From the NCBI RefSeq assembly GCF_020622065.1, contig NZ_JAHRYQ010000002.1, positions 555,905 through 619,904 on the forward strand: DNA of 64,000 nucleotides, given 5' to 3'. This DNA is from Geothrix sp. GTDB lineage: Bacteria > Acidobacteriota > Holophagae > Holophagales > Holophagaceae. A model generated the notes under the pieces. That model saw nothing but the letters and a program-made list of their open reading frames with translations, ran no database searches and was not told the DNA's origin. Both the position numbers and the translations under genes were made by a program. Below are positions 28,001-31,008 of this stretch, piece by piece; within the stretch, counting starts at the first letter, position 1; the number at the start of each line of letters is the position of its first letter.

Positions 28001-28663
28001 TTCGCCGACGCCATCCAGGTGCACACGCACGGCACCCTGTCGAAAATCCTGGAGGATGTGGCCTCGGGCCGCCTCCGCGACCGGAACGAGGTGACGCTGG
28101 GCGCCATGGTCTCCACCGTGGCTTTCAAGACCAACCAGAAAGGCGAGCCCTGGGCCATCCTCCAGGTGGAGGACCCCGCCGGGAAGATGGAAGTGCTGCT
28201 CATGGCCAGCAAGTGGGATCCCGTCACCAAGAAGCCCGGTCGGCGGCCCTTCGAGCAGTACGGCCACCTCGCCCTGCCCGAGGCCATGCTGCGCATCACC
28301 GGCGAGTTGCGGGTGGAGACGATCCAGGCCAACGGAAACGGCAATGGCAACGGCGACTCCGAAGAAGAGGAGGAACAGACCGTGGTGAAGGTCTTCGCCA
28401 CGCAGCTCGAGCCCCTGGAGCGCTTCCAGGGCCAGGGCTTCACCGGGGCCCTGGTGCGCCTGCCCCCGGGGGAATGCCCCCCGCGCCTGGCCGCCCTCCT
28501 GGGCGACCACCGGGGCGACCTTCCCGTGACCTTTGAATACCGCTCCAAGGAGGGGCTCGTGGCCCGCGTGAGGGCCAGCCGGGATCTGCGCCTGAAGCAT
28601 GATCCCGACCTGGCGGAAAAGCTCGCCAAGGAAACAGGCTGCTCGCTGACCTGGACCTACTAG
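25028..28663 (+). CDS. dnaE: DNA polymerase III subunit alpha
   Basis: A 1211-residue replicative polymerase. The PHP domain opens with HLHLHTEHSLLDG (residues 5-17) and has VTDHGNMFG near 40. The palm has GRGSAAGS and the catalytic aspartates in PDVDIDFCRDGR near residue 433. The HhH-type region (GYGFNKSHSAAYA) and an OB fold (about 1020-1080) follow. Near residue 1100 a low-complexity NGNGNGNGD-EEEEE insert interrupts the C-terminal domain. Length is normal for DnaE1. It is the chromosomal leading/lagging strand polymerase. The ATG at 25028 is preceded by GGAGAA at a slightly long spacing. Confidence 0.98.
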   Translation: MSFAHLHLHTEHSLLDGLTRIPDLVKKCRASGMPAVAVTDHGNMFGMMKLYDACEKTKDAEGNWAVKPILGCEVYVAPKTRFDRKLEAKNTTGEEGLEDCVDPSGSRDAGYHLVLLAKNSVGFANLSKLVSAGFTEGFYYKPRIDKDILREHSEGLIALSACLGGEVQARILQNRLDQAERVSRDFRDIFGEDFYLEIQDQGFDKEREIIPYQMELAKKLGIPLVATNDAHYLNHEDADLHDTLLCIGTKTTKAKEKRMRFSTDQFFVKTPEEMRSVFPDHPEYLERTLEIAAKIDLFPITRKPVTPRFPVPEGYDLESYFLHVAKETFEQRLAECRPLWQAGALKHAEEKYRERLAFELDMILKMGFPGYFLLVWDFIRKAREMGVPVGPGRGSAAGSIVAWSMKITDIDPMQYDLLFERFLNPERVSMPDVDIDFCRDGRQKVIDYVTEKYGQDKVSNIVTINQLKTKAVIKDVARVFEKDFAFANNLTKLVPQEPGKPITVGEALEKSDKLRELYESDPEVRNILDISARLEGLSRNTGVHAAGVIIAPDELTQFAPLSMDKDKKVMVQYTMIEAERAGLLKMDFLGLETLTQIAKTQEVIARRHGQPKDMTTIRTFDDKKTFELFAAGDTDGVFQFESGGMKQLLRQLGPDRFDDLIALNALFRPGPLGAGMGTTYVERRHGREPVTYMFPDLEPILAPTYGVILYQEQVMQIASLVAGYSLGEADMLRRAMGKKDKEKMAKEKTKFIEQGAARGYDKAKVAEMFDLIEYFAGYGFNKSHSAAYAMVAYETAYLKANYPVEFMAGLLSTKSGRTDDVAKYVQNCRERGIEVLGPDINQSALDFTATSERQIRFGFAAVKGLGEAALQAILEAREAEGGFKDLFHALKSTDLQKANRKVWESLIKAGAFDSLEPNRAALIEGLPGAVSAASRSGGDEGMTSLFDDAELASLSEDWRVPENVEPWDRKTRLAAEREVLGLFVSGHPLEEFADAIQVHTHGTLSKILEDVASGRLRDRNEVTLGAMVSTVAFKTNQKGEPWAILQVEDPAGKMEVLLMASKWDPVTKKPGRRPFEQYGHLALPEAMLRITGELRVETIQANGNGNGNGDSEEEEEQTVVKVFATQLEPLERFQGQGFTGALVRLPPGECPPRLAALLGDHRGDLPVTFEYRSKEGLVARVRASRDLRLKHDPDLAEKLAKETGCSLTWTY

Positions 28664-28710
28664 CCCCCGGTGCCGCACCCGCCCAAGATGGACGGAGCCA
28701 TGGAGCCCTT

Positions 28711-29430
28711 CTGATCCCCCTTCCGCTGCTGCCGGGCTTCGCCCGCTGGGGCGCCCACCTGGACGCGGTGGTGACCCGCACCGAGGGGCTATGGGTCCAT
28801 GGTCCCGCGGGCTCCGGCGTCTCCTCGCTGGCGGCCGAGCTCGCCCGGCGCCGCGGGACACCCTGGACCGAAGCCGGGGAGGAATCCGATGCGGGGGCCT
28901 GGCTCACCACCCATCCGGGGGGTGTGATCGCTGCCCGGCACCCGGCCCCCGAGGGCCTTGCCTGCCTGGATCTGGCTCTGCCGGAGCTGGAGGAACATCC
29001 CGAGGCCATACCGGCCGTCCTGGCGGCCCTCGCCGCGGAGGAGGGCCTGGAGGGGCCCCTGCCCCCAACCCTGGGCACCCTGCCCTGCCCCGGCAACCTG
29101 CGGGAATTGCGGAACCGCATCCTGCGCTGGAAGCTGCTGGGCCAGCTGCCCGAGCCCGGTCCCGCGGGGCCGCCACGCTTCGAGGCCGAGGACTTGGCCA
29201 CCAACCTGCACGAGCTGGAGCGCTTCCTCCTGCATCGCGCCCTGCGCCGGGCCTACGGCAACCGCGTGGAGGCCGCCGCGCGCCTCGGGGTGAGCCGCCG
29301 CCAGCTCTACCTGCTCATCCGCCGCCATGGCGACCCCGTGCGGGGCGAATCCGGGGCCGGGGACCTCCCCCACCGGCTCCGGAAGCGCCGACCCCCCCAA
29401 AACTCCAGTCCCGACTCCAGCACCCGATAA
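28711..29430 (+). CDS. Degenerate sigma54-activator-like protein (reduced AAA+ remnant with Fis-type HTH)
   Basis: An unbroken frame from about 28711 to 29430 with no ATG near its start: a CTG at 28711 follows GGAG by five bases, and a GTG at 28768 is the first usual start (220 residues). It begins LIPLPLLPGFARWGAHLDAV, then a P-loop-like GPAGSGVSS that lacks the Walker A lysine. The middle has the sigma54-activator motif PCPGNLRELRNRI, and the C-terminus is a Fis-type helix-turn-helix (HRALRRAYGNRVEAAARLGV). The GAFTGA loop and Walker B are absent. It is 39 bp upstream of an intact NtrC-type gene. It may be a DNA-binding or anti-activator partner; the function is unknown. Confidence 0.65.
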   Translation: MIPLPLLPGFARWGAHLDAVVTRTEGLWVHGPAGSGVSSLAAELARRRGTPWTEAGEESDAGAWLTTHPGGVIAARHPAPEGLACLDLALPELEEHPEAIPAVLAALAAEEGLEGPLPPTLGTLPCPGNLRELRNRILRWKLLGQLPEPGPAGPPRFEAEDLATNLHELERFLLHRALRRAYGNRVEAAARLGVSRRQLYLLIRRHGDPVRGESGAGDLPHRLRKRRPPQNSSPDSSTR

Positions 29431-29469
29431 CAGGTGGAGCGGCCGTCATGGCCGCCTGGATGCTGAGCT

Positions 29470-31008
29470 ATGGCGACTCCCCTTCGGGTGCTGGTGGTGG
29501 ACGACGATCCCGGAATGCGGGATGGCATGGCCATGAGCCTCAAACGGTCCGGGTTCTTCGCGGAACAGGCCCGGGGCGGCGAGGAGGCCCTGCGCATGGT
29601 GCGGCCCGGCGCCTACGATGCCGTGGTCACGGATCTGCGCATGCCCGGCATGGACGGCCTGCAGCTCACGGCCCGCCTGAAGGCGGTGGATCCGGGCCTG
29701 CCCGTCCTGCTCATCACCGCCTTCGGCAGCCTCGAGACAGCACGGGAAGCGATGCGCCTGGGCGCCTTCGACTTCCTCTCCAAGCCCTTCAGCCCCGAGG
29801 AACTCACCCTCGCCCTGAACAAGGCGCTCAAGTCCGAGGGCCACCTGAAGGCCGAAGAGCCGGCCCAGGCCCCGGTGATCCTCACCCAGGATCCCGTGCT
29901 GGGCGAGACGCTGGCCCTGGCGCGCCGGGCCGCCGACAGCCGCGCCACCATCCTCATCCAGGCCGAAAGCGGCACCGGCAAGGAGCTGCTGGCCAAGCTC
30001 ATCCATGGCTCCAGCCCCCGTCGCAGCGGCCCCTTCGTGGCCATCAACTGCGCGGCCATCCCCGAGAACCTGCTGGAATCGGAACTGTTCGGCTACGAGA
30101 AGGGCGCCTTCACCGGCGCCACCGGCACCAAGGCCGGGCGTTTCGAGCAGGCCGACGGCGGCACCCTGGTGCTGGACGAAGTGGGCGAGCTGCCCCTGGG
30201 GCTCCAGGGCAAGCTGCTGCGCGTGCTGCAGGAACGCACGGTGGACCGCCTGGGCGGCACCCGCCCCATTCCCGTGGATGTGCGGCTCATCGCGCTCACC
30301 AACCGCGACCTGCAAGCCGAGGTGAAGGCCGGACGCTTCCGCGAGGACCTCTACTACCGCCTGAATGTGATCCCCCTGGACCTGCCCCCCCTGCGCGACC
30401 GGCCGGGTGACCTGAACCTGTTGGCCTCCCACTTCGCCGAACGGTACGCCCGGGAGAACGAGCGCCCCGTGCCCGAGCTCGTCCCCAGCTTCTTCGCCGC
30501 CCTCACGCGCCATCCCTGGGCCGGCAACATCCGCGAGCTGGAGAATGTCATCCAGCGCTGCGTGGTGCTGAGTCAGGGCCGTCGCCTCAGCCAGCAGGAC
30601 CTCCGCTGGCTGCTGCCGGCCGAGGCCTTCGAGGACCTGCCCGACGACCCCCCCGAAAGCCTGGTCATCGAGGCCTGGACACCCGCCGCCAGCAGCGCAG
30701 CGCCCCCCCGGCGCGAAGCGGTGGCCGCAGCCACCGGTACCGCGCCCGCCGGGGCCGTGGTCGCCGACCCCCAGAAGCCCCTCGTCGGCGTGCCCATGGG
30801 CACGCCCGTGGTGCTGCCCCTGGGCCTGAGCCTGCCCGAACTCGAGCGATTCTGGCTGCTCTCCACCCTCAGCGCCCTGAAGGGCAACCGCACCCACGCC
30901 GCCGAGCAGCTGGACATCGCCCTCCGCACCGTGCGCAACAAGATCAACGAGTACAAGGCCGACGGCTACGCCATCCCCGCCAGCCAGCGGGGACGGGACG
31001 ACGACTGA
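29470..31008 (+). CDS. NtrC-family sigma54-dependent response regulator
   Basis: A 512-residue regulator. The receiver (residues 5-120) has VVDDDPG, the phospho-acceptor Asp in [12 protein letters not shown] and the Lys in FLSKPFS. The AAA+ domain (about 135-370) has Walker A AESGTGKE, the sigma54-contacting GAFTGA loop, Walker [13 protein letters not shown] and [14 protein letters not shown] 70-residue Ala/Pro-rich linker leads to a Fis-type HTH ([20 protein letters not shown]). It activates sigma54 promoters when phosphorylated. No histidine kinase gene is adjacent. The HTH resembles those of flagellar regulators, but no flagellar gene is in the window. Confidence 0.95.

Follow-up and report, generated by a model that had tools for sequence, protein, structure and literature searches.

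A reduced sigma54-activator-like protein encoded beside an NtrC-type regulator in Holophagaceae

Introduction

Sigma54 activators (bEBPs) are usually treated as ATP-driven proteins, and the C-termini of NtrC are related to Fis. Some bEBPs lack GAFTGA, the motif that contacts sigma54. Such proteins are reported to act at sigma70 promoters, as is the case for Rhodobacter capsulatus NtrC, Caulobacter NtrC and Vibrio VpsR; ATP binding is reported to matter for the first and intact Walker motifs for the second (PMC10274813). Other bEBPs come in pairs. Those of the HrpR/HrpS type are described as co-activators of RpoN-dependent promoters (PMC9542535).

Here we analyse a gene, referred to as X, that lies upstream of an NtrC-type regulator gene (ntrC, the partner) in a 64,000-nucleotide stretch of DNA (the window) from a genome that is closest, among named organisms, to Geothrix (Holophagaceae, Acidobacteriota). 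With NtrC-family bEBPs such as NtrX, ZraR, FleQ and FlrC, the X protein has in common a predicted AAA+ fold, a lid, a PGNLREL-type motif and a Fis-type helix-turn-helix (HTH). It differs from them in an AAA+ region that is about 100 residues shorter and in the absence of the Walker lysine, GAFTGA, Walker B, the arginine-finger motif and a sensory domain. Like the three GAFTGA-less bEBPs named above, X is without the sigma54-contact motif; unlike R. capsulatus and Caulobacter NtrC, for which ATP binding and intact Walker motifs, respectively, are reported to matter, it is also without the Walker motifs. The degenerate partner found in a Geothrix clade resembles the GAFTGA-less bEBPs of sigma70 promoters (PMC10274813).

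The likeness to pairs of the HrpR/HrpS type (PMC9542535) is that X and its partner are two bEBP-like proteins encoded by adjacent, conserved genes (52/53 loci). Unlike HrpR/HrpS, X is never activation-competent by its motifs, and the partner has lost its activation motifs in two lineages. With Fis, X shares a Fis-type HTH (HTH_8); it differs from Fis in carrying an AAA+ remnant and lid, together about 150 residues, before the HTH, to give 239 aa in total. To our knowledge, no protein like X has been described, and a search of one literature collection returned nothing on Geothrix sigma-54 response regulators or Holophagaceae NtrC transcriptional regulators.

Start codon of X and selection on the gene

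The genes considered here and the candidate ribosome-binding site are as follows.

28711..29430, + strand: gene X, a 239-aa reduced sigma54-activator-like protein with a CTG start and a TAA stop, delimited by the open frame, aligned starts, dN/dS and the family alignment
28702..28705, + strand: GGAG, by its sequence a candidate Shine-Dalgarno site for CTG 28711, 5 nt upstream of it
29470..31008, + strand: partner gene, an NtrC-type response regulator that is intact here (receiver, GAFTGA-containing AAA+ domain, Fis HTH)

The preliminary description of this locus had noticed that X has no ATG, and translation of the open frame indeed gives 239 aa with no methionine at all. The frame is bounded upstream by a stop at 28600-28602, its first GTG lies at 28768, and there is no in-frame ATG, GTG or TTG between the two. 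Translation beginning at 28768 would leave out the conserved LPG..W box of X. At the alignment column of CTG 28711, 40 of 43 alignable loci have a start codon other than CTG (GTG in 27, ATG in 8, TTG in 5), and the remaining three have CTG. This count covers 43 of the 53 loci, as nine loci in which the first codon did not align cleanly were omitted together with L081, where the frame of X is broken near its end in the contig and which was also left out of the tree below. Outside the count, locus L031 has the identical CTTCTG sequence. The start of X is most likely CTG 28711, and the gene has no ATG because this CTG, aligned with the starts of its relatives, takes its place. CUG is an uncommon start codon in bacteria with less stable initiation complexes (PMC11497404), and X expression may therefore be low.

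Under a first-order Markov null at 74% G+C, the chance that a given frame runs through 239 codons without a stop is about 3%. The open frame of X is by itself weak evidence for a gene at this base composition. We compared X with its counterpart in a sister species (G032/L002, 93% identical) by the Nei-Gojobori method. The dN/dS was 0.16 for the whole gene; taken separately, residues 1-120 gave 0.22 and the C-terminal half (121-239) gave 0.08. The same calculation gave 1.2 and 6.7 for forward frames +1 and +2 of the region. The neighbouring ntrC had a dN/dS of 0.10 against the same species. Both the start and the stop positions of X are conserved among relatives. Given the conservation across relatives and the dN/dS of 0.16, X is a real gene that is under selection and is not decaying. 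Nor is it the product of a frameshift, as had been stated previously: the frame is open throughout and its coordinates are correct.

Predicted domain architecture of X

Three elements were recognised in the X protein.

28801..28827, + strand: P-loop GPAGSGVSS, residues 31-39, without the Walker lysine (sequence and family alignment)
29089..29121, + strand: lid or sensor-II type motif PGNLRELRNRI, residues 127-137 (family alignment and hhalign)
29209..29313, + strand: Fis-type helix-turn-helix HTH_8, residues 167-201 (Pfam E 2.8e-8)

The HTH_8 match scored 33.8 bits against a Pfam cut-off of 22, and residues 160-213, which span the HTH, had a pooled dN/dS of 0.08. No NCBIfam model reached its cut-off for X. 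The position of the Walker A lysine is occupied by valine in the window and by a residue other than lysine in all 25 rows of the family alignment. GAFTGA, Walker B (LDE) and the arginine-finger segment (FREDL/FREDLYYR) are absent from the window protein. The motifs listed initially are thus correct, both those present (a P-loop with Val for Lys, PGNLRELRNRI and the Fis HTH) and those missing (GAFTGA and Walker B).

A structure was predicted from the 25-row alignment, with a mean pLDDT of 79.8 and a pTM of 0.62. Its best VIA-align rows were AAA+ domains of sigma54 activators (FleQ, NtrC1, FlrC and NtrX; Z 9.5-10.1), and with most of the best bEBP rows it aligned over 138-146 residues at an rmsd of 2.6-3.1. 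AAA+ domains of bEBPs have about 250 residues, so that X falls short of them by about 100. RFC- and RuvB-type AAA+ proteins followed closely (Z ~9) and the Foldseek TMq was modest, at 0.40-0.45 for the best bEBP rows. The bEBP-type assignment therefore rests on fold and sequence jointly. In sequence, the lid and HTH of X are similar to those of ZraR (E 5.4e-6), and hhalign matched X to the neighbouring NtrC-type protein with a probability of 93% over the lid and HTH only. X is predicted to consist of a miniature bEBP-type AAA+ domain, a lid and a Fis HTH. The fold matches, the lid and the HTH_8 hit (E 2.8e-8) all agree with its original designation as a reduced sigma54-activator-like protein.

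Distribution of X and linkage to ntrC

X is present in 68 of the 93 genomes of the class (E 1e-12), comprising 68 of 77 Holophagaceae and none of the 16 genomes from the other two families. In one of the positive genomes (G091), X is split by a frameshift or an assembly error. Six of the nine X-negative Holophagaceae genomes are less than 90% complete (G013, G077, G083, G085, G097 and G099). The other three (G060-G062) are reduced genomes of 0.9-1.2 Mb, in which X, the ntrC ortholog and the Sigma54_DBD family (PF04552) are all absent. Seven of these nine genomes also gave no ntrC ortholog, and in G097 its match is cut by the contig end. Across the phylum, 54 of 396 genomes match X at E 1e-10. 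Of these matches, 37 are full length, all in Holophagaceae; the other 17 begin at profile position 71 or later, inside longer frames, and look like the C-termini of seemingly ordinary activators. A Bacillota-labelled contig (JAJTBC010000249.1, locus L075) also carries a Holophagaceae-type X-ntrC locus and is probably mis-binned.

In 52 of 53 loci, X is the gene directly 5' of the ntrC ortholog. The neighbour on its upstream side is not fixed, being dnaE in one group and others elsewhere. X and ntrC can each persist alone, since L049 (genome G004) has kept X with no ntrC ortholog found, and G099 has an ntrC ortholog without X in the preceding 2.8 kb.

We rejected a recent duplication of the neighbouring gene as the origin of X. 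Other bEBPs outscore the partners on the X profile (L115, L117 and L116 with 51, 41 and 40 bits; partners from other loci, L118-L121, with 13-21 bits), and the hhalign match to the neighbour is confined to the lid and HTH. The two HTHs share 8 of 27 positions and have different recognition helices. Leaving X itself aside, the neighbour's HTH is the fourth-best match to the X HTH in the genome, with marginal E-values throughout. An earlier suggestion that X may bind the sites of its neighbour is not supported, given the 8/27 match and the three loci that resemble the X HTH more closely, again at marginal E-values. Binding sites adjacent to those of the partner are possible.

Putative regulatory DNA before ntrC

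Two conserved elements precede ntrC.

29398..29430, + strand: bipartite, promoter-like element CAAAACTCCAGT-N14-CCGATAA, overlapping the end of X and conserved across loci
29439..29455, + strand: hairpin GCGGCC-GTCAT-GGCCGC in the ntrC leader, with six consensus pairs, three of which show compensatory changes

Of the 53 loci, 43 carry the bipartite element without a mismatch and 49 with no more than two. Its distance from the start of ntrC, which lies downstream, is 22-48 nt in 47 of 51 loci compared. The genome holds no second copy, even with three mismatches allowed. Six loci have a shorter X that ends ahead of the element, which is intergenic there. It is therefore conserved as DNA or RNA and not as protein. 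In the hairpin, each of the 13 changes that affect one side only leaves a G-U pair and none gives A-C (32 chosen rows of 47 leaders, the rows being related). This suggests an RNA structure in the ntrC leader and makes a DNA operator the less likely interpretation. An Rfam search gave chance-level hits only, far below the gathering scores. We read the element and the hairpin as a putative ntrC promoter and structured leader.

A sigma28 (FliA) promoter was considered for the element and rejected: the -10-like CCGATAA fits, but the spacing does not. The FliA promoter pattern is TAAA-N15-GCCGATAA, for which the genome holds no match at up to one mismatch. We can name no sigma factor that the spacing fits. 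That X itself binds the element is doubtful, as four loci (L073, L075, L077 and L078) are without it and have a nearly unchanged X HTH.

The presence of a promoter-like element and a leader of its own before ntrC raises the possibility that the two genes are functionally independent, with X a stand-alone regulator that keeps its position because rearrangement is rare and because its 3' end contains the putative ntrC promoter. The difference between the DNA-binding helices of X and ntrC and the separated cases of L049 and G099 are also in line with this. However, X and ntrC stayed together when the upstream neighbour (dnaE or others) changed, including in loci that have no such element or have it beyond the end of X. 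We consider independence unlikely.

Loss of activation motifs in the partner

The neighbour had been described as an intact NtrC-type regulator. This holds for the window, whereas ten related genomes encode a partner that has lost motifs. Eight Geothrix partners are degenerate, namely L032, L033, L034, L035, L037, L040 and L043, plus L004 (genome G014), and their clade includes G. fermentans. All eight have lost GAFTGA, the Walker B Glu, the sensor-I Asn, the first Arg of FREDLYYR and the receiver Lys; the receiver Asp is lost in L034, L043 and L004 and kept in five. The partners in L077 and L078 have lost the Walker A Lys, GAFTGA, the arginine-finger motif and the receiver Asp and have kept LDE. 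On the tree of 52 X proteins, the nine rows with a degenerate partner correspond to two changes, both forced by supported branches. The loss in L077/L078 is independent of that in the Geothrix clade. For L041, where the ntrC frame is broken, and L075, where ntrC is truncated, the partner motifs were partly unread. Separately, the L079 partner has the Walker A sequence AQSGTGPE, in which the Lys is lost, and retains GAFTGA and LDE.

The degenerate ntrC genes are still full length, with frame and HTH kept. We estimated dN/dS along the partner from hand-chosen pairs, which share branches and are non-independent. For the receiver, values were 0.18-0.61 in the degenerate Geothrix clade and 0.10 in L077/L078 (near saturation), versus 0.00-0.06 in intact pairs. 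The AAA+ domain gave 0.14-0.30 in degenerate versus 0.01-0.10 in intact pairs, and the HTH 0.05-0.19 in degenerate (five Geothrix pairs) versus 0.00-0.12 in intact pairs. Sigma54 was found in all nine genomes searched, seven with a degenerate and two with an intact partner. The annotation of the ntrC ortholog as a sigma54 regulator could mislead in some Geothrix, such as G. fermentans.

Constraint on X and the state of its partner

With pairs chosen in the same way, the pooled dN/dS of X was 0.18 where the partner is degenerate (6 pairs) versus 0.25 where it is intact (10 pairs). The X HTH had a value of 0.08 in both situations, and the AAA+ remnant was moderately constrained (0.21-0.32). Since the pairs share branches, the equal constraint on X regardless of partner state is an indication and not a formal test. 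The preliminary description had proposed that X may modulate its neighbour. Modulation of the partner's sigma54-activating ATPase is unlikely, because X is equally constrained where the partner has lost that activity.

One way to modulate that ATPase would be for X to join the NtrC ring as a subunit and tune or poison it. Hetero-oligomeric bEBPs are known, with HrpR/HrpS and VnfA paralogs as examples (PMC9542535). The conserved adjacency of X and ntrC, the AAA+ remnant and lid that X has kept and an intact partner in most lineages would all be compatible with a mixed ring. Against this, X shows no relaxation of selection in lineages whose partner is missing the Walker B Glu, GAFTGA and the first finger Arg, and classical ring contacts are doubtful for a protein that has no GAFTGA, Walker B or finger motifs of its own. 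We therefore regard a mixed ring as unlikely.

Discussion

On balance, and with modest confidence, we favour the view that X is an ATP-independent, putative DNA-binding descendant of a bEBP that acts as a co-regulator with its NtrC-type partner in a sigma54-independent job. X would descend from a sigma54 activator that lost about 100 residues, among them those of the sigma54-contact loop, of Walker B and of the arginine-finger segment, as well as the P-loop lysine; what remains would be a folded AAA+ remnant, the lid and the Fis-type HTH. Judging from these motifs, X should be unable to remodel sigma54 polymerase by ATP. From the reduced anatomy of a real gene, its linkage to ntrC, the selection acting on it and the two losses in the partner, we infer that X most probably contacts DNA via its HTH, as a dimer and independently of ATP. 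It would do so as a repressor or architectural co-regulator, forming one genetic module with the downstream NtrC-type protein. What is conserved in this module would be its binding to DNA and not the activation of sigma54, given that residues for activation and signalling disappeared from the partner on two occasions and its HTH was kept.

A DNA-binding role for X that is independent of sigma54 agrees better with the data than an effect on the partner's ATPase would. The moderate constraint on the AAA+ remnant is unexplained by a pure DNA-binding reading and could reflect a protein-protein role. More tentatively, X and its neighbour may be a sigma54-independent two-protein regulator in transition to an ATP-independent DNA-binding complex whose DNA specificity is fixed. 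X would then have lost its ATP engine ahead of the diversification of the family, with the neighbour losing its own repeatedly. The absence of an ATG and of catalytic motifs in X, and the chance occurrence of long open frames at 74% G+C, would suit a decaying activator, as the preliminary description had proposed as one option, or a spurious frame, but the check proposed with that description, for loss or frame disruption in close relatives with a dN/dS near 1, did not refute X as a gene: the observed dN/dS of 0.16, the conservation across ten genera and the kept start and stop positions make either very improbable.

Selection thus maintains both X, which has no ATPase motifs, and its twice-degenerate partner, and the DNA-binding helices of the two are constrained. 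Loci with an intact partner, with a degenerate one, with X only and with ntrC only form a natural series, in part within cultured Geothrix species, in which the functions of bEBPs other than sigma54 activation can be studied.
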